DNA of 64,000 nt, taken from Apostichopus japonicus. Lineage: Eukaryota; Echinodermata; Holothuroidea; Aspidochirotida; Stichopodidae. Shown here in pieces: positions 19,030 through 61,908 of this stretch. The position numbers were made by a program, and so were the translations under genes. Under the pieces are notes generated by a model, which was given only the letters and a program-made list of their open reading frames with translations, searched no databases and was not told where the DNA came from. Where the stretch lies: NCBI RefSeq assembly GCF_037975245.1, contig NC_092576.1, positions 9,503,501 through 9,567,500 on the forward strand, given 5' to 3'. Within the stretch, counting starts at the first letter, position 1. Each line of letters starts with the position of its first letter.

Positions 19030-20360
19030 CTTAAAACAATACTGTGCTATACTGTACTGTCCTACTGTACCACTACTGCAGTGCATTGAACTGTATTGTA
19101 TTGGATGCTACCACTGTACTATACTGTACTTTACTACCAAGTGTTGTACTGTACTGTAATGCACTGTACTGTACTGTAATTTACTCTAATGTACTGTAAT
19201 GTACTATCACTGCACTGTACTGTACTGCCATTGCAATGCACTATAGTGTAATGCACTGTACTGTATTGTACTGTAATGTACTATCACTGCACTGTACTGT
19301 ACTGCCATTGCGATGCACTATACTGTAATGCACTGTACTGTACTGCAATGCACTGTATTGTACTGTAATGTACTATCACTGCACTGTACTGTACTGCCAT
19401 TGCAATGCACTATACTGTAATGCACTGTACTGTACTGCAATGCACTGTATTGTACTGTAATGTACTATCACTGCACTGTACTGTACTGTACTGCCATTGC
19501 AATGCACTATACTGTAATGCACTGTACTGTACTGCAATGCACTGTATTGTACTGTAATGTACTATCACTGCACTGTACTGTACTGTACTGCCATTGCAAT
19601 GCACTATACTGTAATGCACTGTACTGTACTGCAATGCACTGTATTGTACTGTACTGTAATGTACTATCACTGCACTGTACTGTACTGCCATTGCAATGCA
19701 CTATACTGTACTGTACTGCAATGCACTGTATTGTACTGTAATGTACTACAGTATCACTGCACTGTACTGTACTGCCATTGCAATTCACTATACTGTACTG
19801 TAATGCACTGTACTGTAATGTACTATCACTGTACTGTACCAGTAATGTTATTAGTGAAAAAAAGTTTGCGTCCCAGGGACGCAAGCCCCCGAAAAATTTT
19901 GCGTCAATTCGTAACAATCCTGTGTACTGTAATGCACTGTATTGTACTGTAATGTACTATCACTGTACTGTACTGTATTGTACTGTAATGTACTATCACT
20001 GCACTGTAATGTACTACCACTGCAATGCACTATACTGTAATGCACTGTACTGTAATGCACTGTGATGTAATGTACTACCACTGCAATGCACTATATTGTA
20101 CTGCACTACCACTGTACTGTTCTATACTGTACAGTATTATACAGTACTGTTATGTAATATAGAGTGCTGTACAGTACAGTATTAAACTGTACTACTGTAC
20201 TGTAGAGTTGCACTGTACTGTACAGTGCATTATTTAAACTGATTATTGTACTGTAGAGTTGTACTTTACTATACAGTAGCCTATTGATATGCATCGTACT
20301 TTAATGCTATACTGTACTACTGTAGCTGTTCACAGTCTATAAATATTAAATACTGTACTG
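19030..20360. repeat. CTGTA-rich satellite with about 97-bp higher-order unit
   Basis: The whole interval is built from pentamer-like words (TACTG, TGTAC, TGTAA, TGCAA). Between 19227 and 19780 the word TGCCATTGC recurs at 19227, 19304, 19396, 19493, 19590, 19687 and 19774. That gives spacings of 77, 92, 97, 97, 97 and 87, so a 97-bp higher-order unit sits on the short repeat. The long open frames across it on both strands are a by-product of its periodicity and lack of stops. A non-repeat insert occupies about 19848-19922. Confidence 0.9.
19866..19884. other. Perfect 9+1+9 palindrome inside an insert in the satellite
   Basis: TTGCGTCCC, a central A, then GGGACGCAA. It lies in the only stretch of the CTGTA array unrelated to the repeat (about 19848-19922), which also carries GAAAAATTTTGCGTC. 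This may be the remnant of an inserted element. Confidence 0.6.
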
Positions 20361-30989: not shown

Positions 30990-31125
30990 ATGGTTTTCCA
31001 CAAGTTGAAGTCCTTCGTGTCTTTAACTCTCCTCTCAACATCAGCGTTTTTCTTGAGCAGAACTGTGAAATCCCAAGAAACAGATAAAGCTGGCTCAGAA
31101 ATTCAAACTGGAATTCCAAAGATAG
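30990..31125 (+). CDS. PCYOX1: PCYOX1 coding exon 1 (signal peptide)
   Basis: Encodes residues 1-45 plus one base. The donor is GATAG|GTAGG (phase 1). A strong acceptor (TTTTTCCTTTCAG, ending at 30897) lies upstream of the ATG, so an untranslated first exon probably precedes it. GCAT|GTAAGT at 30805 is a possible donor for it. Confidence 0.9.
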
Positions 31126-33237
31126 GTAGGCCTACTGTATGTTAGCCAAGCTTAATAACTATTTAAATCATGTTAGAAAAGTCAGCCAGATTACACTATG
31201 TACAAGCAAATCACAAAAGGAATATAAATTTGATCAGTGTAAAGTAAAGTAAAATAAAATATATTTTATTTTTGTACTTGTATAAATTATAACATAGTTT
31301 AAGCAATTGCAGTCTTTTATCAAGCTCTGCCTCAGTGGTGGTTACCACTTAAATGGTTTCAGATAGTTAACGTTCAATACTCATTAACATTTAGCTAGTC
31401 TTATATCTTTACACTTGTATAAACAATTAAACATTTACTTTTGCATTACTAAATGTACCGGTACAATGTGCTAAATTCACACAGTATGGTTGTGAATCTA
31501 TCTTAAATCTGTTTTTCTTTTGTTCGTCTGATCAGCTGTTATAGGGGGCGGTATAGGGGGAACCTCCTGTGCATATTTCTTGCAGGAACTATTCCGCGAT
31601 GGAGCGGAGATCGACGTCTACGAGAGAGGAGAGATTGGCGGTCGGATCAAGAGCATCCACATCGCTGGCAGGGACTACGAATCTGGAGCGTCAATCATCC
31701 ATCCAAGAAACAAGTACTTGGTTCAGCATGCTGCAAAGTTTGGTAAGTTTTTGAAAGGTCAAAGGTCATAAGAATTTGAGCAATATATACATAGGCTGAT
31801 CGGTGCTATTGTAGGCCTGTACCACCGGCTGCCTTTGAATAGCATTGTGGTTCCAACAGTTGAACTACATTGAAAATTTGTTCCGTTAAATATTGTGAAA
31901 ATTTTGAGACAGTCTGTGACTTCACAGTGTAAGGGTTATCAGTCTTGCCCTCCAAAGTTTGCTATACATTGATGAAATTGTTTAAGCAGTACTGTTCTGG
32001 AGGTCCAGACTCTCCAAATAGATATTGTAAGCTTCAATTGGACAATTAAATGTCTAAGAGAGAAGGGTGGCAGATAAATGCTTTTTAAAGTTTGAAAGTG
32101 AGTAATTATTATTTGACTTTCTCCCTGTTGGGGAGGTGGTGTGGCGGATGTGGGGGGGGGGGTACAGTAATACCTATGAACTGTAAAGGCTTTTAGCTTA
32201 CCCCAGGCTGGCCGAACGTACTGAAACAGGTTACAACTCAGGTCACTGCCTGCCATTCAAAATATGGAATCTTTGTTTACTAATGTGCTCACAAAAAGTG
32301 TCTTTTGGTTGAAGAATGTTGTCGCATTAAGTCGCATAAAAGTTTGAAAGTGAGAAAATATTTTCATTTCATTTTAAAGCTCTTGGGGAGGTTGAGCGGG
32401 TGGGGGGTACAGCAATACCTTTGACCTGTGAAGGCTTTTAGCCTATCCCAGGCTGGCCTAGCCTACTGCAGCTCATGATTTCTTCTCCTTTCTCTACTAC
32501 TGTTGAACATATTTCCTTTCATGTATCAACCTGAATACAACCACCCCCCCCCCCCCCTCATCAAAACCCCTAATATTGTATGTAAATTTTTTGCTTCACA
32601 GGTCTGAAACATAGAAAGAAGATAAGTTCATTGATGGGAGCTTATAACGGTAGAGAGTTTGTCTTTGAGGAGAGTCAGTGGGGGATTATCACGGTATTAA
32701 AGATGATACTACAGTATGGATTCATGGATCTATGGGGTCTGAGACGAGAAGTCAACAGTATGTTGAATAAATTTGACAAGTGAGTCCAACATCAGAAAGT
32801 TTATAAACCATTAAGTCATAGTTGAAGTATGATGCTGAAAGGGGGAGGGGAGGGGGAGGGAGGGTGTTGAATTAACCTATTAAAAATAAAGCAGGATGTT
32901 TCCAACTAAGAAGTCAGGATTAGAATATTGAGGGATGTGGTGAATTAATTTCCAGAGTGCACAATGTCATCTATTAGACAGAGAGAGCCTGGTATAACTT
33001 TTGCATAAATCCATTTGTGTATATCAAAGTGGGTATGATTGTTGTTTATTAGACTGACAAACTCTGGGTTAGAAAGTTGCGGTTGTGAATATCAAAGTTG
33101 GCATAATGCCATTTTGTTATGATCCTTCAAGGATCTTAATGAGAGACAGATTATAAAGGATCAGAATTAAAGAAAAATAATTGCAAAGGACATGGAGAAT
33201 ATTAAAATAGTTAACAGTATATCTATCTATATATATG

Positions 33238-33271
<34 letters not shown>

Positions 33272-34872
33272 AATGTGTGTATATATGTACTACCATCACT
33301 GCTTTGTCATTAAACCTATTCCTCTGTCTTCCAAGTATTTACAAGCTGCAAGATGAAGGTCAGTCTTTCCTAACATTAAGGGATATGATGCATGCCATGG
33401 GGGGCGATGACTTTGTGAAATGGACAATGCTGCCAGCCGATCAGATGCTCAGGGAAATGAAGTTTTCAGAAAAGTTCATATCAGAGGTTGTTTCCTTGGC
33501 GACCAGGGTCAACTACGGTCAGGATCCCGACATGGAAGGATTTGCAGGTACAAATGGCTGTGAGAGGGAAAAGGGCTGTGGAAGGAAATATGATAGGGTT
33601 GGGGATGGTTGGGGGGGGGGGGGGGTAATGGGAGGAGGAATATGTGCCAAGCAATTTCAAGGTGATCAATATTGAGCCCAAAACTGAAGAATGGCATAAA
33701 CTGTTGAAAGTTTCCCAAGTGACTCTCCTGCAGGTTTCAGTCAGCTATACATCTGGGCATATAATATGTAAGCATAAACAAAATCCATAAATTAAGTTTG
33801 CTAAGCTATTGACAGCAAGCTGAAAATAATACTCTCCTAAAACATATTATAAATTTAAAAAAATTGCGTAATATGGAAAGAAAAAAAAAGTTCCAACTGA
33901 TAAAGTTTATATTAAGTTGATTTATTTGTTAATAAGAGAAGCTATGAAATGCATTTGCGTTGCTTTTTGTGAGAGGTTTTAAATTATGGTTTTGTAACTA
34001 CTAACTACCTAATTTGATTTGCAATAATTCGAATTGTATAATTCGAATTTTTCTTTTTAATGTTTGCTACCTTCTCTGCAGCTTCTGTGTCCTTGGCAGG
34101 AGTTCAGTCGGGGTTGTGGGCAGTAGAGGGCGGCAACATGCTTCTACCCGAGAACTTCCTGACTCAATCCAAAGCAACACGACGAAGCAGTTCAGTGGTC
34201 AGAGTCGCTCTGGGTCAAAACAGTGACAATGTTACGAAGCCATCGTTCATGGTCACTCACACCGATGGAAACAGATCTGAAACAGACCGATATGACATGG
34301 TCGTCATAGCAACACCTTTAGTTCCAGGCATTAGTGAGATAGAATTCGTCGACTTTCCATCTCCTATTGGACCGTTTCCCGGTGAATACTGCAGCACGGT
34401 CGCAACTTTTATCGATGGTACCTTAAACCCCAAAGCTTTCGGTAGAACGAAGGAAGAAGGATTGCCCGATAGTGTGATCACAACCCAAGACATTCCTCTC
34501 GGGATAAGAAGTGTCGCTAAAAATTTCCCCGTCACCATAGAGGGCGATGTCGACAAAGACAAATTTGTATATAAAATCTTCTCTACCGAGAAAGTGAGCG
34601 GATCACAGTTGGATGCTTTGTTTTCATCTCGCAGCGAAGAGCGGTCGGAGGATTGGCTAGCTTACCCCTATTACAAGGATGTAGATATTGATAAGGTGGC
34701 GTCCTTTCAGTTGCATGATGGGATATTTCATGTCTCACCGATAGAGTGGGCAGCCAGCGCGATGGAGATGTCAGTTATCGGAGGAAAGAATGTGGCTCTT
34801 CTTGCCAAGCAGTACTGGAATGGTCTCACTGAAGAAAATGGTAGGACCGGAATTGCAAAAGATGAACTATAG
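30990..34872 (+). CDS. PCYOX1: Prenylcysteine oxidase, five coding exons, 507 aa
   Basis: A FAD-dependent thioether oxidase that splits prenylcysteine into free cysteine and the prenyl aldehyde, the last step in breakdown of prenylated proteins; the family acts in the endomembrane lumen. The join is 30990-31125, 31536-31742, 32602-32779, 33336-33547 and 34082-34872, total 1524 nt. All introns are GT-AG and the frame is continuous. The ATG at 30990 follows an in-frame TGA at 30945. Residues 1-28 form a signal peptide with core FVSLTLLSTSAFFLS. The FAD Rossmann motif GGGIGG is at 49-54, with the partner acidic residue E75 and GGR at 80-82. The family signature WAVEGGN is at 257-263 and a C-terminal flavin-site-like AASAMEMS at 468-475. 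The length matches the roughly 505 aa of vertebrate PCYOX1. The last four residues are KDEL, an ER-retrieval signal on a lumenal protein. Whether this is PCYOX1 or the joint ancestor with PCYOX1L needs a tree. Confidence 0.95.
31536..31742 (+). CDS. PCYOX1: PCYOX1 coding exon 2 (FAD-binding motif)
   Basis: Acceptor GATCAG|CTG, donor TTTG|GTAAGT. Contains GGGIGG, the DVYER acidic end of the second beta strand, and GASIIHP. Confidence 0.95.
32083..32459 (+). repeat. Two diverged copies of a 125-bp unit in PCYOX1 intron 2
   Basis: Copies at about 32083-32213 and 32338-32459 share AAGTTTGAAAGTGAG, TTGGGGAGG, GGTACAG.AATACCT and GCCCAGGCTGGCC-like blocks in order. Confidence 0.8.
32602..32779 (+). 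CDS. PCYOX1: PCYOX1 coding exon 3
   Basis: Acceptor TTGCTTCACAG|GTC, donor GACAA|GTGAGT (phase 2). Encodes the YNGREFVFEESQWGI region, conserved in the family. Confidence 0.93.
33236..33290. repeat. AT/CATA microsatellite in PCYOX1 intron 3
   Basis: TA dinucleotide and ACATA runs just upstream of exon 4. A second tract, poly(G) of about 15 bases, sits at 33611-33625 in intron 4. Confidence 0.85.
33336..33547 (+). CDS. PCYOX1: PCYOX1 coding exon 4
   Basis: Acceptor CTTCCAAG|TAT, donor TTTGCAG|GTAC (phase 1). Encodes MMHAMGGDDF and RVNYGQDPDM, both recognisable family blocks. Confidence 0.93.
34082..34872 (+). CDS. PCYOX1: PCYOX1 coding exon 5, terminal, ends KDEL
   Basis: The acceptor is CTTCTCTGCAG|CTT. 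This large terminal exon encodes residues 245-507. Its last 51 coding bases plus the stop belong to copy 1 of the 61-bp repeat at 34819-35306. Confidence 0.95.
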
Positions 34873-35306
34873 AGGGCCGAATGGTCTCACAGAAGAAAAT
34901 GGTAGGACCGGAATTGCAAAAGATGAATTATAGAGGGTCGAATGGTCTCAGGGAAGAAAATGGTAGGACCGGAATTGCAAAAGATGAATTATAGAGGGTC
35001 GAATGGTCCCACGGAAGAAAATGGTAGGACCGGAATTGCAAAAGATGAATTATAGAGGGTCGAATGGTCTCACCGAAGAAAATGGTAGGACCGGAATTGC
35101 AAAAGATGAATTATAGAGGGTCGAATGGTCTCACCGAAGAAAATGGTAGGACCGGAATTGCAAAAGATGAATTATAGAGGGCCCAATGATCTCAGGGAAG
35201 AAAAGGGTAGGACAGGAATTGCAAAAGATGAATTATAGAGGGTCGAATGGTCTCACCGAAGAAAATGGTAGGACCGGAATTGCAAAAGATGAATTATAGA
35301 GGGTCA
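34819..35306 (+). repeat. 61-bp tandem array, eight copies, copy 1 coding for the KDEL tail
   Basis: Units start exactly every 61 bp: 34819, 34880, 34941, 35002, 35063, 35124, 35185 and 35246. Copy 1 is the end of PCYOX1: it encodes NGLTEENGRTGIAKDEL and the TAG. Copies 2-8 lie in the 3' UTR. Each, read in its own frame, still encodes a 17-residue tail ending GRTGIAKDEL followed by TAG, with small changes in the first half (LREE, PTEE, DLREEKG). Since 61 is not a multiple of three, the copies cannot be read as one protein. Confidence 0.97.
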
Positions 35307-38300
35307 AAGAGTTGCTTCAGAGAAAGTAGGCAAGAGATGTAATTGGATAGGAACTGCAATTAGTGTCTTTCTAAAATTAGGCATGTCAAGATCCCTCTAA
35401 ATTTGACAAATTAATAGCATTAGGGTAAGTTTGTTTTGACTGAGGAAAAATCAACATGGTATAAGCATCCTCGTGAAGTTAGCATTCAATTACCAATGTG
35501 CTCTTTAGGAGACATTGATCGGTGAAGATTTTTCTTTTTGAACTATAAAAGTGAATTCGAAGCAAACATTTATTTCGGCTAGTTCTACACTGACAAACTT
35601 GCTTTATTCTACAACTTTGATTTTTAATTGGATAGGGTGGTGCTATAACCATAATAAAGAGGTTTTGAATATAACAATGTACCAAGTTATAAAGTGTAAT
35701 TCTTATCAAGATGCGTTCATTTTTTGAGATAGTTTATTGGATGAAAGGTTTTGAAGGAAAACAAAACAGCGAATCGGAGGTTGGGTATTATTCGACTCTA
35801 TTTACTGGGTTATCATTAGTGGAATTAAGCACACCCGCTAAACAATATTATCTCTAAATTTAATGAGTGACTCGCTTCAATGAACCAATCATGAGGTGAA
35901 GGTGAGAACTTTCCATGTAAGCTCAACCTTTGTGTAAGCTACCCAGGAAAGAGCATCTGTGATTCAAAACCTTGTTGTCAGTCTTCAAAAGTTTAATTGT
36001 AATGTATAACATGCTTATATAGTTTCTTGAAATTCATCTTTATAATATAGTGGGAAAAATTTTTACTAGGGAAAAACTTCAATCCTGATGAATTGCCAAC
36101 ATTCTTGTAAGAGAATTAAAGGAGTATAACAGAGTTAGAAAAAGATGTCTTCAGTAAACAAATGATTTCTTAGACAGTATGTGGAGATGGGAAGGGGTTT
36201 GTAGGGAGGGATTGGATGCGAGTGAGGTTTGCAGGGAGTAATATGGGAGGGGTTTCCAGGATGGAATGGGGAAAGGGTTAACTGGGAAAAGCAAGTCACA
36301 GTTTGCCATGGCCTTGTTATCCTCTTGGTAGCCATGTTTTTGTTAGGTTTGTAGATTATGTTACATTTCTAATAATCAGTTTTATGTTTAATGGCATTCA
36401 AAAAATGATATCTGCAATATTAACAATTTTGTTATTTTCTTAAATAAATAATCATAGGAAAGTAAACATGGTCTTTAATTTCCATTGGTCTTCTTTGTCA
36501 ATATTTAACCTCATGAAAGAACTTTGCACTTCTCTCACCTGTCATCAACCTTACACGATCACTTTTCCATCTACCTAACTGGATCAAGAGAGACGGGTAG
36601 ATGTTTGCCCCCTTTTCTACACCCCACACAAAAAATTTATAAGCATTTAGTAGCACAACCTTGCCAATTGACTTCATTCTAGACCTAATTTCACTTTTAA
36701 AGTTTCCTCTTTAATCTCAAGGAGGACCCAGATCCCCCCCCCCCACCTTCCCCAACAACCAGACCCTCTCCTTTTTCAAAACCCTCTATCTACCATTGAG
36801 GTCTACCATTTAGAAGTTAACCAACATGTTTTTTCACTGAACTTTACATATGGTTTTCTTGCATTGGTGATTATCTTTCGTACTGAGATTCTTTGACAAG
36901 GTTGTTCGCATCAATTCTGAACAAGAACCATTCTTTAAATTTTTATCGACATTTAGCAGTAAGAGAGAAATCTATGTGATGAAATCCTGAAAGAGTTGAA
37001 CAACCCAGGTTAAAGAAGAACAAAAAAGACAGGACTCCAGAGTCCCAAGGTTGATCAGGGTAAGTGTGACAGAAGAACAGTCAAGTAAGGAAAATGTGGC
37101 AGAAGAAATTGCAAAGAAAAGGGTAAAACCAGGTAAGAAAAGAAAGGGCCGACATAGATTCTGAATGCTGGAAGAGAGAGTAGGTCTGGAGAGGATTGTT
37201 TTTAGGTGATCAAAAACGATCGCAACTGGAAGGTGCATTCAATTAATCGGCTAAGAAGACACTTTGATATAGATGTCAGAGTTAGTCATCACAGGCCTAA
37301 TGAAACAAGAAGTAATCAAGTAACTATTTAATGTTTCCATGAGTCATTCAGGATTACATTTTAAAAGGGGAGGTAGTGGGGGGGGGGTGGGTGGGGAGGA
37401 ACAGGTGGTTGGTGTGGTGATGGGTAAGTGGCAGTTGAAACTGAAATAACTAAATGGTACCATATGAAGACAATCTCTTATGAACATTTAATATGGAAAA
37501 TTGAAGGAGTGTGGGGGAGGGTTGTGGTGGAATGATCAAGTGAATGACTCCCACAGACCCACGTCTATCCATTGTTTCAATTACATTCTTTTAATTACTG
37601 TTCTATATCACAAAGTACAATTCTAGTTTGAAAGAGGTACTAATAATGAATCAGATCATAAGTGAATCAGAAATCTGTTCATTGCTTTTTTTTTTCCAAA
37701 ACTTTATTAATTCATCAGGAAAGACAAATGGAAAAGAAAAGGCACAATGTTTGTACAAATATAGAACATGAAGTATTGTAAAGAAAAGAAAAGATTATTG
37801 TATTTGAAACAAAACCCACAGAGTATCAAGACAAGTCACCAACAAAAGAAACTTGTTTTGAAAATTAGAAATCTCAAATCCCCATAGAGTGGAAAATAAA
37901 TGTAAGTAGTGAAGATGGAAAATTTCCCCAGGTTTGGGCAATTTCATTTATACAGATGTGTCCTTTTTTGTTGAAACAGAAAGTTCTCTGTGCACAGTTT
38001 GAAGAGTTCAAGCATCAACCATTAGGAAATGCATGTTTTGGCTACCTATGATGCAATCATACTAATGGGGTAAGCCTACATCTGGACACTCACCAGCCAT
38101 GTAGTGAGTGTATGCACTAGTCACCTATACTCATTCTTTTCCTCATGGATTTGTACTACAGTAGCTGGTACTCATACTCAAAGGCATTTTTGGACATCAA
38201 GTATAAATACTATTCTAATATTTAGTCCTTGTACTCATGCTTAGAGCCTTGTACAAGTACTTATAACAAGATATATAGTAACCTGTACTCATTCTTATCC

Positions 38301-40639: not shown

Positions 40640-43600
40640 CTGAGGAGGTTGAAAAAGATATAACAGAGTTAAGAGAATAACCATAACATAACGGAACGAA
40701 CGTCGCCCATGTGCTTGGAAATTGACTGTAAAACTAGTAAACCAAGTAAACAGAGAAATGAATGTGAAGGGAAGAAATATGAATAATATATCAAATAGCT
40801 TACTGAAAGAAAAACAAACTTGAGAGAATTAAAAAAAAATATTGAGAATTACAAAAAATATTGAAACCAAAGTAGTCGATTTTGCTTGGAAATTAACTGT
40901 AAAACTAGTTAACAAAGAAAAGGGAGAAATGGATACGAAGGGAAGAAATATGAATGAGATATGAAGTAGCTTACAGAGAGAAAAACAAACTTGACAGAAT
41001 TGTATTAAGTTTCTCATCGCTTGGAAATTGACGGTAAAACTAATTTACCCTAGAAGAAAATGTACGTTTGACATAGATTACAAATAGAGTTAAAATATAT
41101 AACAGTAAAACAGCTACAAAACAGCTTTCAACACTGTTCAGCTGATGAAGTTATCTATAAGGGGAGATGACCGTACCAAGAGTCAGAATTGCTTTGCTTG
41201 AGTATGGCAAGGATGAAGAGGTATCATTGGTGCCTGAGAATGTACTATGACTGACCAATGAGCTGGCATCTCCTTAAGCTATCACTTAAAGGGGTGGGGA
41301 GGGGGCAGGGATGGAGGATGATACTTTGTGGATGGACAGTGAAGATATTAAAATAGTCCAGGTTCAATGACTCACAAGAGTTCAAAAGTCATATAAATTA
41401 GTTTAAACTGGTCATGTTCCTACCAGAGACAAAAAGGGAGTGGTAGAGGGAGGTATGTAAGAACAACCGTTCCCTACATCCCATAATTTGTTATGTCTAA
41501 TGGAGTAGATTTATCATAAAGACATCATCCATTCACCTTTCATCTTGATGGATGGACCTCTTTAATAGGTTTATTACAAACAACATTATCTATACTGTTC
41601 ACTTCAGACCTTCTTACCTTCAACATTTTCAACCTCTAATTTATCCTGACCCTCTTTCTCCCGGGCAAGGGCCTTCTCCTTCTCCTCCTGCAGGATGCGC
41701 CAACTTCGCGGGATGCGAGTTCCGTCTCCCGCAACCTCTGATGTGAACTGACAGAATCTTTCCCTCTCGTCCCTCAAGGCCTTCTCATCCCCCTCGGGTA
41801 ACATCTCGACCGACGACGGAGCTATATTTCCTCCAGCGGATGTAGATTCTGGTATTTCGGTTATCAACACAGACGATGAAGATTTTCCTTCATCCGTGTG
41901 ACTGTATTCAACTGAACCTCTCTCCGACAACTCTGTTGAAGTTTCAGTTTCTTTATCGAAGGAGACTTCACCAAGGCTTATGTCCTCGATCAAGGGTCTG
42001 TTTTGCAGCGGTTTTGATTCTCCTTGGTTTATGGATGGAGATATTTCTTGAATGAGGGACTTGGGCTTTGTTTCCTCATAGATTCTCTGGATGAGAGGTT
42101 TTCTGGAGTCTTCTGATGATGATGACAATGGAGTTATGTCTTCAAAAAGGTTTGGTTCTTTGCTGACCTCTGTTCTTGAGGCTGCTTGGACTGGCAGTGA
42201 GGTAATAGGTGTTACATCCAGTTCTTCAATCAGAGTTTTCTATAGTAACAATTTAAAAAAAAAACAGTAAAATACAAGAAATGATGGTAACTAGGTTAAA
42301 ATGCTATAAAACAGCATTTTGAGGAATGTTCCCAATACTAAAGGCACACCACAATGTAGGTTACTATTTTACATGGGGTTAATTTTCATTTCCAATCATG
42401 ATGTAAAAATAAAAATAAATTTGACTATTTCAATTTTTTTCTCTTTTCGTGTCATTGCAATATATACCACGACCATGAAAGAAATGTCCAGTTTATGAAA
42501 TACTGAGGACCATATCAATTTCAGGTACTAATCACTGATGAAATGGAAAAAAGAAAATTAGCTATTTCTGTAATAATTCCACACATGTAGTATGAGTCCC
42601 AACAGCATGAGTACACTTACAATTAGAATTCACCTTGGAAAGAGTATAAGTACAAGGCTAAAATCAAGATGACAAGAACTTAAAAGGATTTTCTTATGAC
42701 AAGACAATATCAAAACTTATTTTGAAGAGAAAAATATTCCACAGTGCTTGTGGAAAACCCCATCTCAATATCTTGTTGCTTACCAGAGGCTTGATTGAAA
42801 GTGACCTAGTTTGACAAGCTAAACCTTTGATTCTTCCAGGGAGTGTATCAGAGAACGTAGTCTGTGATGTGATTTTTAAGAAACAGTCACCGAAGATAGA
42901 GACTGGGCATGAACACAAACACCTTGACCCACCTCTCAACTTGACCCACCTCAACAACTTGACCCACCTCTCAACTTGACCCACCTCAACAATTTGACCC
43001 ACCTCTCAAACCCCAGTCTGGGTATATTGCAACTGTATGCTAACCATGTGATCATGGCTGTGTTATATGATTATATATGCTTAGTGAATTGCCATGGGGA
43101 ATAATAACCAAGCAAGTCCTCTACTTATTACACATCAGCCCAACAGGTTACAGGACCTAACAAACTACCTGATGAAACGATTGATAAATTTGGTACAAAC
43201 AAGGACATTGGAAGCAAAATGTTTTCACAAATTTACAGATAAATTTGCAATTAAATATATTCACCTTCTTTGATTGCTGCGCCCAGTGAGATTCTGATAA
43301 AGATAGTTCTTCAATATCGACCTCTTCCAAATCAGGTAAATCCTATAGAGAATGAATATGCAGTGATATAAAAATTGAACATACTGTACATCATTGGACA
43401 AGACCTTATTTTCATAATTTAGACATAATCTGAGGAATTAGCCGAATGAACAAAAATACAAATAGTACAGTACAGTACAATATCGTACAATACTGTACTG
43501 TACAGTATTGCACAGTCTTGTACTGTACAGTATTGTGCAGTGCAATACTGTACAGTGCAATACTGTACAATACTATACTGTACAATACTGTACAGTACAA

Positions 43601-46600
43601 TACCGTACAATACTGTACAGTATTGCATGGTACAGTATTGTACTGTAAAGTATTGTACAGTATTGTACTGTACAGTATTGTACAGTACACTACTGTACAG
43701 TATTGTACTGTACATCATTAATGCTGTACAGTACAATAATGTACAATTGTACGGTATTGTACTGTACAGTACTGTACTGTACAGAAGAGTACAGTACAAT
43801 AATGTACAGTACTGTACTGTACAGAAGAGTAAAGTACTGCACAGTATTGCACTGTACGGTACTATATAGCCAACTGAAGATGCTTTTCAATGAACAAAAG
43901 AACACTTTTTCTTTGCATATATCTCTTGTACAAACAAGAAAATTTCCTACCAATATTTGCAAGCAAAGCTGTTGATGATCGAATGTGCACAGATTAGCAA
44001 AACTAATCACCTGAAATAGAAACTTAAGCATGACTTTAATTTTAGACCCAATCTCTTTGTTCTTCAATTTTTTATTTTTTTTAGTCAGTCATGACTCCAG
44101 TCGCTCCTGTTTTTGCAAAATGAAAATCTTCAGATTAACTGGTGAAATTCTCTTCATCAAAACCAGAACCACTTGACTTGAATATAGGTCAAGGAGAGGG
44201 GGTCAAACTTAAACAATCACCAACATACATGGTGGCAGGCAATACTGATGACCTTTCAAGTCAATAACAAACAAAAAAATTATGTAAATTTTGAAAAAGA
44301 AAAGAAATTCTTGGATAGAATCACAGGATTTCAAACCAATGACCTCAAGATTACAGGACCTGGGCGCTTTAAAATGAGTTATTAATCCCTAATTTCATAG
44401 TAATTCTTACATAATCTATAATTACTTGAATAAATGTACAACTCATCAGAGATACTATTAGCTAGTTTAGGATTCACACCAATGACCTCAAACATTACAG
44501 GTCCTGTGCTCTGCCAACTGAGTGTAATTTCCCCTTAATTGATGTTTATTACTTTACACAAATCTGAACTCATCACATCTAAACTAGTGCGGTACAGGCA
44601 TCAGATGTGATTGTGTAGAGATTTGTTTTGCATTATACACAGCTGCTGCAGTTTGGGCGTCAATGACACAGCCCCATCAATATCATTTTGTTTTCCATTT
44701 TCGATTCCCGATCTCACATCAACTACACTTTGTTTGAAATATTTTAACACAAAAGTTTGTATATTATTCAGTTGTTCATTGAGACTCTTTGCTTTAATCA
44801 AGTATCAACAACTCTTGTTTAGTATTCATATGGCACTTGTTATGTTGTTGCAAATCTGGAAATTCAATAGATTCGATCCAATTATCTTTCAGAAAATGCA
44901 CTTACATCGATATTAATCTTCTGGTTATCGTCTGTCAGTTCTTCTTCTCCATGGTTACCACTCACTGCTTCTTCCTTCACATCTTCCTCTTCTTCCTCCT
45001 CTCTGGTACCTGCTGGACCTCTGGTGACATCAAAGGTAAACATGGGCTCATCTTCCGGTGGTTCGTGGATGTAGGTTTCTGGGTCACGGATCTCCATGGG
45101 TTTGTTGTCCTGCAGCTAAGAAATTCAAAATACTCTCCCATGTAGTCAACTTGTGTTGCTATGTAACATGCATTACGGTAATAAGGAATCTAAACAGGAT
45201 GATTTAAGTAAAATTCACCAAAGTTAAAACTGGAGCCTAAATTTTAGAACACACACCCCTCAGTTAGTGATATGATAACATAACCATATTTTTAATAAAT
45301 GAGCAAGTTTTTCAAAATGGCCAAAATGAGTCACCTAATTTCAAAAGGCTGGTTAAATTTATAGAAAAGTGAAATCAAAGCCTCACCTGGTCATCTCCAT
45401 TCTGTTGCTGTTCCCTCCTCTTGGCCTCAGCTCTAGCCCTGATTGCTGAAAGAGCTGTAATCAACAGACATGGGACAGTCATGAAACCAGAATAAATGTC
45501 AAAGTTGTTAGATGCATCAGTATCTTGAAACAGTTTCATATAGTCACTGCTAACCTGTGACAAGCTTTACCATGATGGTATAATGGGGTTGGGGATGAGA
45601 GGGGGGAGTACTGATACTACAAACCACCCCTACCCTCCACCAACCTCAAGCATGAGTGAACATTCATTGAGTTTTGAGCATATTTAGGATAATCTGGATA
45701 AATGTCAAAGTTGCCAGACTCATCAGTATCTTAAAACACTTTCATATACAGTAGTCACTTCTAACATTTGACAAGCTCTAACCATGATGGTATAATGGGG
45801 GTTGGGGGGGGGGAGAGGGCACTGATACCACCAACCACCCCTACCCTCCACCAACCTCAAGCATGAGTGAACATTCCTTGAATTTTGATCATATGTAGGA
45901 TAAATGTCAACTGAACAAGGGTACATCATAAATGGCTTCCATAAAGAGGATCGTCAAGGCAACTGGTTGAAGTAAGTTGGAGGATTGACAGTTGGGCTTT
46001 CAAAACAAAGTTTGACCATGGGGATATTTTTGCCCTCAAAAATTGTTAGTGCTATGGTAATATCAATAATAATAACATAAATTTAAAACCAAAATTGATC
46101 AAATTTGTCAAAACTATTAACACTCTAAACCTTTGGTGTTACTGTGAACCTATGGCAAGCTCTTACTACTATGTTACTAGGGAACATTGGTAATCCTTAC
46201 CCCCACCCCTTTCCACTTACATAAATATCCACTATCCACTTACAAAAAAGTTTGAAGTATTAATGGCCATGAATTGACCTTAAAAACTGATTTAGGAGCA
46301 ATATTTATGACCTTTCAGAGGACAGGACAAACACATAGCAGTTAAAGACGAATGTACTAATTACTGAAATGCTGCTCACCATCAACGCTGGCTTGTATCT
46401 TTGCACGGTCACGACTGATCCATCGTTCCCTTTCAGCCTTCTCTGCTTCCCGACCGCCTTTGGCCCTAAGGAAATCAAAATTTCAAAACTACCGTATAAT
46501 TCTGATATTATATTATAATGTCATATCTTTTAACAAATTGCAGCTTATTATCTAACAGCAGAATTAGGAAGGCCAATCTGTAATTCCTTCATTTTTAAAA

Positions 46601-49600: not shown

Positions 49601-52093
49601 TACCAGGATGAAGCTAGAAAGAATAAAGATGGTGGTACTATGCAAATGCAGGAATAAAATGAGAGCAATCCCTAATTTCTTGTCACTTTTTGCCAAAGCA
49701 GTAAATTGTGAAACAACTGTAAATCTATAAAATAATTGTAATATAATAATATATTTTTATAAATTTGTGTATCAGAACTGAAAAAGGGATGATTTAGGCT
49801 GTTAAGATATGTTATCCTTTGTGCATGTTAATAGTTGAAAGCCTAAAGAGTGTTTATTATCTAAATTTATCATTGCTTTTCTACTTTTTCTTTAAACTTG
49901 TACAAGCACTTGCCCCCTTGATTCAGAGTACATGTTAACACATCGTTGCGAAATCAGGTCGGTATCACCGTTACAATCGTACAGAAGAACAGACGTACCG
50001 ATATTTTCAATCCGCGTAATGTAATTGTTGCTGACACCAAGAGTATCCAGCTTGACCAATGGTTCCAGGTTTTCCAGTTTATTAATCAAGTTGTGTTGAA
50101 GATATAAACATCTCAGGTCCGTCTGGTGATCGAGATTCTCAATTCTGCTTATTCCGTTGCACTCCAGATAAAGAGCCGTCAGTCCTGTGTAAGCCTCGAG
50201 GTTTTCAATCTTTGAGAAACCTGGAGTAATTAACCAAGAAAATATTATTATATATATAATAAGGGGAGGGGGGTTTGGTCACTAAAACTGTGAAGTTGTA
50301 AGGGCATTTACTGAAACAATTTGTCATCAGGGAAAATTATTTTGAACATGTGTGATATAAGGGAATTGGGGGGGGGGGGGCGAGAGGGTTAGGAGGAATT
50401 GGCAGTGGGTATTTCCCACAGAACTGCACACGTAATGTTTGGATGCAAAGGTTAGTTTTGAATTTAGAAAGGAAAGAGTTTTTCTGGTGAAATTGTGCAG
50501 GAGGCCAGTATTAGTAAAAATTAAATGTCATCAGACAAACCACAAAAACAATGAAAAAGTAACAAATGCTTCTGAATGCTTCCATGAAGTCACTGCAAAG
50601 GCATCAATGGCCTCCTTCATAATGTACTGGTACTACTGCTACAAGTTTGATTGTAAGCACTCAATAAAGTACAGTCCAGGAAATAAGTTATCCAGTATCT
50701 CATCGCAAAAATGCCATGAAAATGAGCAAATTGCTATGCAAGTGCAAAGGTGTACAGTATACTAGTTTTTAAACACAGGAACTGTTCTATTTCAAAAGAG
50801 ACAAATTATTTCAGAAGCTTCAAAAAATTCTATGCAAAATATGAACACTAAATGATTCTCCACACAGTCCACATGCAGGTGACTACAACTACCAGTCTAT
50901 AACATACATATTGAAGCATCTCATGTGTTCCATTAATAAAAAATTACTCATTTTGCCTGTTACAATACCTTTGTTAGAAATATCAAAGGAGAGAAATGTT
51001 AAAACAAAGGAGCTATTGTGATGCTGTTGTTATGCTCTGTAATATAAAGTATAAATACCTTTGTAATGTAAGTACATGATATCATTCAAGTACGGTGTCC
51101 TGTACAGTTTCTGTTGCTTACACAGTTCCAGGAGAGATTTAGCTGTCATTCTAAAGGTGGGGGAAAAAGAGAGGTTCAAGTATTAAATCTTTTCAACAGT
51201 TAACACAAGAAACAATTAATCAAGCAATTATTTATGACTTAGCTACTGTCTTGTGTTTTTGAGCATTATCATATAGGGCACAATGAAGCATTTACATTAA
51301 GCATAGCAGTGTTGAAGAAAGTTTAGTCTTTCTTTTTTACATACTATATAATTCCTGTGTCCAAAGACTGCTATGCATTATTATGATTAATCAATGTTGT
51401 CAAACTCTTTAAGCATAAAATTCATATTCTAGTGGCAGTACTTGATAGTGTTAACAGATTAATATTGAATGTCTGCATTGCAAGGGGAGTAACTACCATG
51501 TTTTGATAGCACTTGCTATAATATTCAGCTAGTTGGGAACATTTGCTATACATGCTAATACCACAATTCACTGTCTTTCCATGCTTCAAGACACTTGTAT
51601 CGACAGTTCAAACAATTCTCAACCTTACAGTATATGAAGAAAAAACACAGCAATCAATCTAATGAATGTACCATGTAATTTGTATAAAATTATTCTTATT
51701 ATATTTGATCCTATGATCTCCACCTCTAATGAGAAATCATTGTTGTCTTATCCTCCTCTGCTCATCTCTTAATGTTTCTACCCATCCTTACCTTGGATAT
51801 CTGTCATCATCTTCTTTCTTCTTAATTTCTTCTTGAGTGCTCTGGCTATCACCTTTTCCATCTGCAGATGTTTTTTGTTTACCCTCTTCAGTATTCCTAT
51901 CTTCTTTGTAAGTAATCTCTTCATCAACAAAGCTTTCCTTCAACTTTATTTCTTCTTTAGCTTTGAAGATGAAGTCATCTTCTTCCTCCACAATCTGTGT
52001 TTCTCTGACATTTGTTTCATGCTCAACTGATGTGATGCTTTGATTATTGAGCTTTGTTGAACTGGTATCATCTATTTCAATAATTGATGGCAT
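40482..52093 (-). CDS. DNAAF1: Dynein axonemal assembly factor 1 (LRRC50), 12 coding exons, 714 aa
   Basis: A cytoplasmic factor needed to preassemble axonemal dynein arms in ciliated cells. The join, 5' to 3' on the - strand, is 52093-51792, 51150-51059, 50220-49999, 49071-48905, 47884-47810, 47228-47164, 46465-46380, 45454-45387, 45115-44906, 43342-43265, 42239-41618 and 40639-40482. That is 2145 nt, one continuous frame, all introns GT-AG. Residues 1-100 are acidic and low-complexity. The family block [20 protein letters not shown] begins at about 104. Six leucine-rich repeats follow at about 128-275 ([48 protein letters not shown]), then an LRR cap with [12 protein letters not shown] charged helix spans about 308-356, then a disordered tail with DLPDLEEVD at 430. 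Human DNAAF1 is about 725 aa. The ATG follows an in-frame TAA. The weakest splice site is the exon 4 donor CTG|GTTGGT, but only it keeps the frame. Confidence 0.95.
40709..41040. repeat. Intronic duplication, about 170-bp unit, 2+ copies
   Basis: In DNAAF1 intron 11. GCTTGGAAATTGACTGTAAAACTA, with variants, begins units at about 40710, 40886 and 41019. The first two also share GAAGGGAAGAAATATGAAT and GAAAAACAAACTTGA. (The longer words are given as motif labels, not as a contiguous stretch.). Confidence 0.8.
41618..42239 (-). CDS. DNAAF1: DNAAF1 coding exon 11 (disordered, six LI-x-x-I motifs)
   Basis: Acceptor GTTACTATAG|AAA, donor GTTGAAG|GTAAGA, phase 1. Encodes residues 456-662, serine- and glutamate-rich. 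A motif of the form x-L-[IF]-x-[DER]-[IL] occurs six times: TLIEEL 457, NLFEDI 485, PLIQRI 503, SLIQEI 516, PLIEDI 537 and VLITEI 579. Confidence 0.9.
42920..43012. repeat. TTGACCCACCTC minisatellite in DNAAF1 intron 10
   Basis: Five copies of CTTGACCCACCTC alternately followed by TCAA or AACAA, giving a 35-bp dimer. Confidence 0.88.
43265..43342 (-). CDS. DNAAF1: DNAAF1 coding exon 10
   Basis: Acceptor CTCTATAG|GAT, donor AAGAAG|GTGAAT. Encodes [20 protein letters not shown]. Confidence 0.88.
43466..43866. repeat. CTGTA-type low-complexity array in DNAAF1 intron 9
   Basis: About 400 bp of GTACAGTATTGTACTG-like units, the same word family as 19030-20360. It is strongly self-complementary, so the intron RNA could form long hairpins. 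Open frames across it are artefacts. Confidence 0.9.
44327..44384 (-). mobile_element. Degenerate tRNA-like sequence, copy 2
   Basis: In DNAAF1 intron 9. The - strand matches copy 1 (44470-44530) through CAGG.CCTGTAAT.TTGAGGTCATTGG and a B-box relic GGTTTGAAATCC. The A box is decayed. Confidence 0.55.
44470..44530 (-). mobile_element. Degenerate tRNA-like sequence (SINE head or tRNA relic), copy 1
   Basis: The - strand reads ACTCAGTTGGCAGAGCA, very close to the A-box/D-arm of many tRNAs. An anticodon-arm-like region follows, then GGTGTGAATCC, a damaged B box (consensus GGTTCGAATCC). The stems do not close well, so it is not called as a functional tRNA. Confidence 0.6.
44906..45115 (-). CDS. 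DNAAF1: DNAAF1 coding exon 9 (acidic)
   Basis: Acceptor AATTTCTTAG|CTG (a second AG six bases in is also in frame), donor ATCGAT|GTAAGT. Glutamate-rich, ending NQKINID. Confidence 0.88.
45387..45454 (-). CDS. DNAAF1: DNAAF1 coding exon 8
   Basis: Acceptor TTGATTACAG|CTC was chosen over an in-frame AG nine bases further in. The longer form gives [15 protein letters not shown], which fits the family helix better. Donor GACCAG|GTGAGG. Confidence 0.88.
45492..45899. repeat. Two-copy tandem duplication of about 204 bp in DNAAF1 intron 7
   Basis: ATAAATGTCAA recurs at 45492, 45698 and 45900. The intervening copies share CATCAGTATCTT, CCATGATGGTATAATGGGG, ACCCTCCACCAACCTCAAG and CATGAGTGAACATTC. 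Confidence 0.88.
46380..46465 (-). CDS. DNAAF1: DNAAF1 coding exon 7
   Basis: Acceptor TTTCCTTAG|GGC, donor GATG|GTGAGC. Encodes [20 protein letters not shown]. Confidence 0.93.
47164..47228 (-). CDS. DNAAF1: DNAAF1 coding exon 6 (LRR cap)
   Basis: Acceptor GTTTTCAG|AAA, donor GCATG|GTAAGA, phase 2. Encodes [20 protein letters not shown]. Confidence 0.94.
47461..47609. repeat. Two copies of an 80-bp unit in DNAAF1 intron 5
   Basis: AGTGAACATTCCAA.TGTTG, TTATAG, CATGAATATTCATAGCTTT and their diverged counterparts occur in the same order twice. Confidence 0.8.
47810..47884 (-). CDS. DNAAF1: DNAAF1 coding exon 5 (LRR 6)
   Basis: Acceptor TTTCTCTGCAG|AGA, donor TGT|GTAAGT. Encodes [18 protein letters not shown]. 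Confidence 0.94.
48165..48308. repeat. Two copies of a 72-bp unit in DNAAF1 intron 4
   Basis: GGTTGACATTAATGTTGAAC then ATTTATTTCAGAAATT and AAAAGCTA, repeated once with about 10-15 percent divergence. Confidence 0.85.
48905..49071 (-). CDS. DNAAF1: DNAAF1 coding exon 4 (LRR 4-5)
   Basis: Acceptor GATCTCAG|ATT, donor CTG|GTTGGT (weak). Encodes [12 protein letters not shown] and [14 protein letters not shown]. Confidence 0.93.
49999..50220 (-). CDS. DNAAF1: DNAAF1 coding exon 3 (LRR 1-3)
   Basis: Acceptor ACTCCAG|GTT, donor ATATCG|GTACGT. Three consecutive SDS22-like repeats of 22 residues with IENL spacing. Confidence 0.96.
51059..51150 (-). CDS. DNAAF1: DNAAF1 coding exon 2
   Basis: Acceptor CCCACCTTTAG|A, donor ACAAAG|GTATTT. 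Encodes [20 protein letters not shown] and [10 protein letters not shown]. Confidence 0.94.
51792..52093 (-). CDS. DNAAF1: DNAAF1 coding exon 1 (acidic N-terminus)
   Basis: Residues 1-100. Donor CCAAG|GTAAGG, phase 2. The exon starts at about 52115 after acceptor CTTTGTAG, so about 22 nt of 5' UTR lie in it. Confidence 0.92.
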
Positions 52094-58000: not shown

Positions 58001-59585
58001 CGTAGTAATTTGATTTCATGCATTGATCACTGGTGTCGACAATTCCGAACATTCATCGAATACAGGAACAGGATACTCACTAATTCATATAGAAGAGAAA
58101 AATGTCCCAACTGGGTGGAATTACATTGTATTGCTTTGTTTCAACTGGCATATAACATACTGTAGTTGGATGTCATGGAAATGTGGTGAATTTGATTGGA
58201 CAAATAAACCTTGTTGTGTGTTCTGCAGAATGCAAAGCTTGGTTTTAGACCAACAATGAATAATCTAGGCTTTCACCCTGTTTACACGGAACAGGTTTGT
58301 GATAACTAAGGTAACTGGTACATTAGTGGTTTGGTATGGAAACTTAAATACTAGTGTCGGGTCTTTCTTGAAAGGGTAGCTGTAGCGGCATTACCCAGTC
58401 AGAAGAGTGACCAGAATATAAATTTGAAAATATGCCAAACACTAACTGCTACCAGTTCTCCATACCGTCGTCGAGATGCAAGTCACGTTGTCTCACCATT
58501 ACATTGTATTGAGGTATAGTTTACTACACTGATTGGAGTTCTCATTGATTAATTGATTGCTGTTGGCATGACAACCAGATGAGAAAATTTTGGAGTTCTC
58601 TGATATCCTTAATTAATGGGTTTTTGTTTAAAAATTTAAAAAAAAAAATGCAGACACTAGATACAAGTTAACAAGGAGAAGTTAATTTGGAAATATTGCC
58701 AGTTCTCAATCAATCAAGCAGCATATTATCCCTTCAATTAATCTATGTATAATTATGTAACAATCGATCAAAAGGAGAAAGTAATCAATCCATTTTCATC
58801 TCTATTAAAATTGTTAAAGTTTCTTTAAAATTGGCAAACTCACTTTAGACATTGTCTCATTAGATGGGGAATACTCCAATGTACCTTAATTTCTAATTAT
58901 TCAATGCTATTTGTCCTGTCTTTTGTCATAATTTGTAACTATTGTGCAATATATTTGGTGTTACCTCTATTATCTTTTGTTTTTTCTTCATTACTGCCGT
59001 GGTCTTCTTAGGCATACTTTATCGACCTATCCAAAGTAGTTGAAAGTACATTCTGATTGTGAGGTGGACAGAGCTGACAAGGCAGGTATCAGAAGGGGTA
59101 GGGGGATGGGGAGGTTACAGCCGTAGGGTCCGTTTTGATTGCTTGCCAGAGTAAAAGGAATCTATGCTATGGTGACGGTGTGCGTGCGTACTCATGTCTG
59201 CCGTGCTTTGGCTTGTAGAAGCCCTTTATTTTGTGTGGAGATCAACGGTCACTTGAGGTGAAGAAGTTTGATAACTTTGTTAATTCGGTAACTCCAACAA
59301 TGAAGCTTATTTCCTTTGCAATGGGCAAGTTATCTGGAACTCTTCTCTGATGTTTTCTGGTTCTTGACTTTAGGACACATTTTCCACAGTTGCTTTATCA
59401 AGGAGGTAATTCCATATCATATGTATAAGGAAAGGGATCAAGAAGCCTTCAGGTTATAATTCACTTCAAGAAAATGAAGACTTCAAAAAGGAGGTTGTAA
59501 TATGATTGATGGTCCGTGGGTGTCTGGACGCAGCACAGAGATCGGTGGAAGTACGTAATGGTTCAGTCAACCAGGATCTTCAGAC
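55012..59585. other. G-gamma 3' UTR and intergenic DNA, no other gene
   Basis: ATTAAA at 55235-55240 is the nearest poly(A)-like signal and AATAAA occurs at about 56952. Short open frames, including one of 72 codons at 57947-58165, lack splice context and family resemblance. Confidence 0.5.
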
Positions 59586-61908
59586 GGCCAGGTTAAAGAA
59601 CACAAAAGGAATGTTTCACTGTGCGTGAAGTAGGAGCTTAAAGTACAATTAAGAGAGGGCCAGGTTAAAGAACACAAAATGAATGTTTCACTGTGTGTGG
59701 AGTAGGAGTTCAACGTACACGAGACGGCCAGGTTAAAGAACACAAAAGGAATGTTTCACTGTGCGTGAAGTAGGAGCTTAAAGTACAATTAAGAGAGGGC
59801 CAGGTTAAAGAACACAAAATGAATGTTTCACTGTGTGTGGAGTAGGAGTTCAACGTACACGAGACGGCCAGGTTAAAGAACACAAAAGGAATGTTTCACT
59901 GTGCGTGAAGTACAAGGGCGGCGGAACCGGGGGGGCACAGGGGGCACGTGCCCCCCCACTTTTCCTCAGGGTTAAAAATGTGCCCTTTTTCTACATAAAA
60001 ATTGAGGTGTCTCAAGTTAGCAAGAGGCCAGGGAACCGGAATGAACACTCGGGAAGGGCCGTTTCTGGCCATCTGAGGGGTTTGTAAAACCAAAAATTTT
60101 CTTGTACGCTCCGCGCCAACCGATGGTGGCGCTCCGCTCAGATAGTCGTGCATACAACTTTGGATATTGCAGAGCTAGTATGCATATTTTCTATGAAAGG
60201 GGTGGGGGGGGGGGAGGGCTTGATGGAGTGATGTGTATACGCAAAAAAAGATAACACAATAAGAGTTATAAAGGGTACTAAATATAAGGCTACATCAGTC
60301 CAATCGAATTTCTGCAAAGTGCCCTTTGATGTCGGTGCCCCCCCAGATTAAAAGTGCTTCCGCCGCCCTTGGTGAAGTAGGAGCTTAAAGTACAATTAAG
60401 AGAGGGCCAGGTTAAAGAACACAAAATGAATGTTTCACTGTGTGTGGAGTAGGAGTTCAACGTACACGAGACGGCCAGGTTAAAGAACACAAAAGGAATG
60501 TTTCACTGTGCGTGAAGTAGGAGCTTAAAGTACAATTAAGAGAGGGCCAGGTTAAAGAACACAAAATGAATGTTTCACTGTGTGTGGAGTAGGAGTTCAA
60601 TGTACACGAGACGGCCAGGTTAAAGAACACAAAAGGAATGTTTCACTGTGCGTGAAGTAGGAGCTTAAAGTACAATTAAGAGAGGGCCAGGTTAAAGAAC
60701 ACAAAATGAATGTTTCACTGTGTGTGGAGTAGGAGTTCAACGTACACGAGACGGCCAGGTTAAAGAACACAAAAGGAATGTTTCACTGTGTGTGGAGTAG
60801 GAGTTCAACGTACACGAGACGGCCAGGTTAAAGAACACAAAATGAATGTTTCACTGTGTGTGGAGTAGGAGTTCAACGTACACGAGACGGCCAGGTTAAA
60901 GAACACAAAAGGAATGTTTCACTGTGCGTGAAGTAAGAGCTTAAAGTACAATTAAGAGACGGCCAGGTTAAAGAACACAAAAGGAATGTTTCACTGTGTG
61001 TGGAGTAGGAGTTCAACGTACACGAGACGGCCAGGTTAAAGAACACAAAATGAATGTTTCACTGTGTGTGGAGTAGGAGTTCAACGTACACGAGACGGCC
61101 AGGTTAAAGAACACAAAATGAATGTTTCACTGTGTGTGGAGTAGGAGTTCAACGTACACGAGACGGCCAGGTTAAAGAACACAAAAGGAATGTTTCACTG
61201 TGCGTGAAGTAAGAGCTTAAAGTACAATTAAGAGAGGGCCAGGTTAAAGAACACAAAAGGAATGTTTCACTGTGTGTGGAGTAGGAGTTCAACGTACACG
61301 AGACGGCCAGGTTAAAGAACACAAAAGGAATGTTTCACTGTGCGTGAAGTAGGAGCTTAAAGTACAATTAAGAGAGGGCCAGGTTAAAGAACACAAAATG
61401 AATGTTTCACTGTGTGTGGAGTAGGAGTTCAACGTACACGAGACGGCCAGGTTAAAGAACACAAAAGGAATGTTTCACTGTGCGTGAAGTAGGAGCTTAA
61501 AGTACAATTAAGAGAGGGCAAGGTTAAAGAACACAAAAGGAATGTTTCACTGTGTGTGGAGTAGGAGTTCAACGTACACGAGACGGCCAGGTTAAAGAAC
61601 ACAAAATGAATGTTTCACTGTGTGTGGAGTAGGAGTTCAACGTACACGAGACGGCCAGGTTAAAGAACACAAAAGGAATGTTTCACTGTGCGTGAAGTAA
61701 GAGCTTAAAGTACAATTAAGAGAGGGCCAGGTTAAAGAACACAAAAGGAATGTTTCACTGTGTGTGGAGTAGGAGTTCAACGTACACGAGACTGCCAGGT
61801 TAAAGAACACAAAAGGAATGTTTCACTGTGCGTGAAGTAGGAGCTTAAAGTACAATTAAGAGAGGGCCAGGTTAAAGAACACAAAAGGAATGTTTCATTG
61901 TGAGTTCA
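59586..61908 (+). repeat. 68/72-bp dimeric satellite, about 26 units
   Basis: Every unit starts GGCCAGGTTAAAGAACACAA. Type A is 72 bp (ends AAAGTACAATTAAGAGAG). Type B is 68 bp (ends TTCAACGTACACGAGAC). The left part alternates strictly A-B, a 140-bp dimer, with starts at 59586, 59658, 59726, 59798 and 59866, then from 60405 onward. From 60753 some units are A/B hybrids (A-like first half, B-like second half) and B-B runs appear. The array is split by a MITE at 59913-60371. Confidence 0.95.
59913..60371. mobile_element. 459-bp hAT-like MITE inserted in the satellite
   Basis: Perfect 14-bp terminal inverted repeats CAAGGGCGGCGGAA, and a perfect 8-bp target duplication GTGAAGTA at 59905-59912 and 60372-60379. 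Removing it and one duplication restores one regular 72-bp satellite unit. The interior has GGCACGTGCCCCCCC and the TGTACGCTCCGCGCCAACC block shared with other MITEs here. There is no transposase frame. Confidence 0.95.

Follow-up and report, generated by a model that had tools for sequence, protein, structure and literature searches.

Variable tandem repeats are known from the ends of human genes, SLC6A3 carrying a VNTR in its 3' UTR and CEL a VNTR in its last exon, and the unit number of some 3' UTR VNTRs has been claimed to affect mRNA stability or translation. Here we describe a tandem array in a 64,000-nucleotide stretch of sea cucumber DNA (G000:C16:9503501-9567500; hereafter the window) that resembles these VNTRs in its place at the end of a gene and in its units, which are tens of bases long and arranged head to tail. 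In contrast to SLC6A3 and CEL, the sea cucumber unit itself holds a targeting tail together with the stop codon, and the array straddles the coding end. As far as titles and the beginnings of abstracts reveal, no minisatellite repeating a protein tail plus its stop codon was found in the open-licence literature.

The gene in question encodes a prenylcysteine oxidase, and a solved ancestral PCYOX1 (9fxq; PMC11530802) is available for comparison. The authors of PMC11530802 propose that the KTEL of PCYOX1 may assist ER retention. The two proteins belong to the same enzyme family and both have a KDEL-type C-terminus (KTEL in PCYOX1), whereas the sea cucumber tail is a canonical KDEL and the end of its gene is tandemly repeated.

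A repeated gene end with its own stop codon

The coding part of the gene and the array that overlaps it are described by the following features, with positions given in window coordinates.

30990..34872, + strand: coding part of the prenylcysteine oxidase gene, five exons, 507 residues, C-terminal KDEL
30990-31125, 31536-31742, 32602-32779, 33336-33547 and 34082-34872, + strand: predicted prenylcysteine oxidase coding exons, their borders assigned manually to GT/AG sites that preserve the frame
34082..34872, + strand: last coding exon, TAG at 34870-34872; Pfam PF07156 matches the open frame 34042-34869 with E=1.2e-66
34818..34878, + strand: unit 1, the final coding bases with NGLTEENGRTGIAKDEL and TAG, then six post-stop bases (TRF, copy translation)
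34879..35305, + strand: units 2-8, 7 x 61 bp, 3' of the stop codon, with an in-register KDEL-TAG in each (TRF, copy translation)
35653..35658, + strand: AATAAA, candidate polyadenylation signal, 3' of the array (hexamer scan)

The 507-residue protein matches Prenylcys_lyase (PF07156; E=3.3e-101, 339.4 bits against a cut-off of 27) and carries an N-terminal Rossmann-like NAD(P)-binding domain (PF13450; E=2.3e-11, 44.2 bits against a cut-off of 21.9). A Prenylcys_lyase match above the curated cut-off is thus combined with an N-terminal Rossmann-like domain, which is the signature of the prenylcysteine oxidase family. Two PF07156 matches were found in the genome, both of them exons of the array-bearing gene. 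By hydropathy only, the N-terminus is hydrophobic, Kyte-Doolittle averages over 12 residues peaking at 1.6 in residues 10-21. The protein ends in KDEL, the type of C-terminal tail by which ER-resident KDEL proteins are recognised, and it is plausible that this KDEL acts as an ER-retrieval tail. The alignment with 9fxq reaches to within five residues of the end of the sea cucumber protein, and 9fxq terminates in KTEL, as confirmed by a match over 443-482 of 482. Since 9fxq aligns near the protein end and itself ends in KTEL, the best interpretation is that unit 1 represents the old end of the gene and units 2-8 its copies.

TRF reports a tandem array at 34818-35305 with a period of 61, 8.0 copies, 94% matches and 0% indels. 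The identity at a lag of 61 is 0.946 (427 positions), whereas 300 mononucleotide shuffles do not exceed 0.370 at any lag from 20 to 120. This is the same eight-copy 61-bp array that the first-pass annotation of the window had located at 34819-35306, in a register shifted by one base. The exact 61-bp spacing described there from the last coding exon onward agrees with the lack of indels, unit 1 being the 3' end of the gene and units 2-8 lying past the stop. The flanking 61-mers match the unit at 18/61 positions only, on either side, and the array edges are therefore sharp. With head-to-tail units longer than about 9 bp, the array is a minisatellite. A whole-genome DNA search using units 1-2 as the query gave four matches among the best candidates scored, each within the array itself, which is no proof of uniqueness. 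As the AATAAA at 35653 lies beyond the array, the latter would belong to the 3' UTR and would be transcribed.

Sequence of the copies

Read in the frame of the gene, copy 1 gives NGLTEENGRTGIAKDEL-TAG, the same tail and stop as first annotated. A tail ending GRTGIAKDEL-TAG is encoded by 8/8 copies, with the invariance confined to the last 10 residues. The earlier statement that all seven extra copies encode a 17-residue tail ending GRTGIAKDEL-TAG stands, but the 17 residues are not the same throughout: within the first seven, copy 3 (T>R), copy 4 (L>P) and copy 7 (G>D, T>R and N>K) differ from copy 1. Because 61 = 1 mod 3, neighbouring units present the KDEL-stop in successive frames, and the copy frames cycle 0,1,2. 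The statement that each copy lies in its own frame is consequently true for neighbours but not for the array overall, as copies 4 and 7 share the gene frame with copy 1.

The units vary at 9/61 sites. Copy 7 is an outlier with four private changes, while copies 5 and 8 form the sole identical pair. The mean difference is 6.3% between copy 1 and the others, and 4.8% among copies 2-8. At site 59 (0-based, at the unit end), copies 1 and 6 have a base in common that is absent from the other six, which fits some exchange between units. It had been proposed from the GAATTA of copies 2-8, as against the GAACTA of copy 1, that the extra copies were homogenised apart from the coding copy. The difference itself is confirmed, but it amounts to one synonymous site only, and separate homogenisation is unsupported given the outlying copy 7 and the base shared by copies 1 and 6.

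Origin of the array

We consider it very probable that a young and nearly neutral minisatellite formed at the gene end. Its starting point would have been a single duplication of 61 bp, reaching from the last prenylcysteine oxidase codons over the TAG, from which slippage or unequal exchange built up the eight units. Translation would be confined to unit 1, which holds the old C-terminus, ER-retrieval KDEL included, and units 2-8 would form inert 3' UTR; they are probably functionless extra copies following the stop codon. As each unit supplies an in-register KDEL and stop, growth or shrinkage of the array would be harmless and hence tolerated. Indeed, simulated in-register exchanges kept the GRTGIAKDEL end in 3904/3904 cases, and the coding copy was altered only in the 488 with a break in unit 1. 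The premise of the first-pass annotation that in-register exchange preserves the KDEL-stop is thereby upheld. Its suggestion of a neutral minisatellite originating at the end of the gene is supported by the exact register, the sharp edges, the alignment of unit 1 with the old C-terminal region of the family and the commonness of arrays in this genome.

This commonness was gauged from one 10-kb piece per contig C1-C16 (16 pieces, at round-number positions that we picked). Arrays were counted if their period lay between 20 and 200, with 4 or more copies and a match of 80% or more. Qualifying arrays are contained in 8/16 pieces. Two of the 16 are satellite throughout; leaving these two aside, there are 7 arrays in 14 pieces, covering 3,655 of 140,000 bases (2.6%). 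If arrays were placed blindly with respect to genes, about 518 of 19,828 stop codons (one per gene, the gene count being that of PMC10344927) would be expected inside such arrays. This figure is a rough upper guide, since coding ends are constrained and only 1/7 arrays reaches a 90% match. Such arrays being common, one lying over a stop codon is no great surprise in this genome.

The replacement changes in copies 3, 4 and 7, and the lack of an RNA-structure signal, are further in keeping with near neutrality. Against it, no background array equals the 94% match of the array described here (best 90%, n=7), and the variation tends to avoid the KDEL end, although this latter trend is weak and was noticed post hoc. 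If the array is indeed neutral, it offers a clean example of a minisatellite arising across a stop codon with the gene unharmed, and its persistence is explained by a unit that carries its own in-register end. Should the unit number vary, the array would provide a marker at one gene in farmed sea cucumber.

Alternative explanations

The array could instead tune expression, with the unit number changing mRNA stability or translation. Its position between the stop codon and the AATAAA at 35653 would suit such a role. However, the folding energy of the array RNA lies in the range of shuffled sequences (z=0.12; 51/100 shuffles fold equally well), and an Rfam scan of the window gave 0 matches at gathering score, so that we regard expression tuning as improbable. 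Alternative splicing within the array was considered separately and set aside on inspection by eye, the unit's GTAGG being weak and its AG not preceded by a pyrimidine tract.

More doubtful still, and in our view very unlikely, is that the extra copies are kept to replace or repair the KDEL-stop, either through gene conversion acting on unit 1 or by rescuing alleles or ribosomes that have slipped out of frame close to the end of the gene. The exchange simulations are compatible with this, in that 488/488 exchanges breaking in unit 1 retain GRTGIAKDEL. The mechanics of frameshifting also lend it some appeal. One-base deletions were simulated across the frame 34042-34872, which takes in 40 bases 5' of the exon start; a KDEL end resulted in 128/831 cases with the array as compared with 2/831 with one unit. 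The KDEL-preserving deletions all fall inside 34742-34872, where 128/131 keep the KDEL, nearly all of them through copy 2, because 61 = 1 mod 3 and one shifted unit frame is open. One-base C insertions over the same frame led to a KDEL end in 9/831 cases with the array and 0/831 with one unit, so wide rescue is confined to a single shifted frame out of the two. Reading through the stop yields the ten residues RAEWSHRRKW, then another stop, without KDEL. In addition, the benefit would scale with the frameshift rate across about 130 bases, which is presumably too small for selection to act on. Small frames of at most 37 codons begin at ATGs in units 1-7 and end at the KDEL of the next unit, while those of unit 8 do not. 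We read both the frame rescue and these small KDEL-ending frames as by-products of unit length and sequence. A frameshift safety net exists on paper, but it is probably accidental. It seems hardly likely that the period of 1 mod 3 serves as insurance for the protein's address label, whereby exchange would restore unit 1 and frame errors would still yield an ER-retrieved enzyme.

Selection on the copies was assessed with an expected silent fraction of 0.25 and copy 1 included. Within the tail frame, 3/7 variable sites are silent (P=0.24). When repeated hits are counted by hand, 5/9 changes score as silent (P=0.049), and one site contributes three of these. Both variable sites in the last 33 nt, which encode GRTGIAKDEL-stop, are silent (P=0.066), and sites vary less often in this segment (2/33) than in the remainder of the unit (7/28; P=0.067). 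Each of the four tests leans weakly to constraint; they overlap one another and were picked post hoc. The comparison of silent with replacement changes gives no significance by site and a borderline value by hits.

An array over the stop codon is present at 0/3 of the other KDEL-type gene ends compared: an HDEL end in the calreticulin family (L029), and an RDEL (L030) and a KDEL (L031) end in the thioredoxin family, each assigned by strand and nearness only. Another five 3-kb loci from the calreticulin- and thioredoxin-family exon searches had no KDEL-type end on the matched strand and are therefore of no use as controls.

Across the genome, the ungapped KDEL-stop pattern AARGAYGARYTNTAR matches 309 times, fewer than the 419 times of the pattern read backward as a control. 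Among the first 100 matches listed, which extend into C8 and so stop short of the window's own C16, the only cluster within 1 kb consists of five at C6:13102533-13103622. The surrounding 4-kb piece (G000:C6:13101501-13105500; L028) contains a 43-bp array of 33 copies at 95% (L028:867-2288), in which the five matches are situated, adjoining a 20-bp array of 22 copies. Like the prenylcysteine oxidase array, it has a period of 1 mod 3 and AAGGATGAACTTTAR-like KDEL-stop strings in its units. In contrast, no long reading frame adjoins it, the longest listed in the piece being 88 aa, and we take its KDEL-stop strings to be due to chance. Repeated KDEL-stop strings can thus arise without a protein behind them. 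In view of the silent-site result (3/7, P=0.24), the folding (z=0.12) and the 0/3 other KDEL-type ends, the buffering by gene conversion put forward in the first-pass annotation finds weak hints at best. Only if selection does keep the copies would the locus give new insight into how targeting signals are protected.

Finally, a wrong unit number or an unreal array is scarcely credible: tandem repeats are error-prone in assembly, but the HiFi reads (mean 14.7 kb, about 64x, according to PMC10344927, whose assembly appears to be a close fit to the genome analysed) extend far beyond 488 bp, and the units differ at nine sites, with copies 5 and 8 alone identical.

Other repeats and minor observations

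The minisatellite at the prenylcysteine oxidase gene end is accompanied by other repeats in the window. A 68/140-bp minisatellite at 59582-61902 consists of two blocks, the larger with 11 units of 140 bp matching at 93%, and includes a 140-bp array at 60372-61902. Degenerate long arrays of ACTGT / GTACTGTACA-like units occupy 19113-20223 and 43464-43863. Elsewhere in the genome, L024:2300-2798 is occupied by 14.9 copies of a 34-bp unit at 94%, the locus also containing a calreticulin-family exon. Three of the listed KDEL-stop pattern matches, at G000:C2:27787927, 27824529 and 27862073 (- strand), share the same 15-mer AAAGATGAATTATAG at a spacing of about 37 kb, and may represent duplicated genes or a dispersed repeat.

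Downstream of the prenylcysteine oxidase gene and on the opposite strand, a leucine-rich repeat exon (LRR_4, E=6.5e-9) is located at 49892-50278 (- strand), perhaps belonging together with 41604-42239 (- strand). This exon may resemble DNAAF1. Contig C35 (16,099 bases) is mitochondrial, and its COX1 is read with NCBI code 9 (echinoderms and flatworms), AAA standing at positions of expected conserved Asn, as in NHKD. Several COX1 pieces with an in-frame TGA, one model segment being matched twice, are present at G000:C29:14745-31219 (- strand), and could be either nuclear copies of mitochondrial DNA or an unplaced mitochondrial contig.
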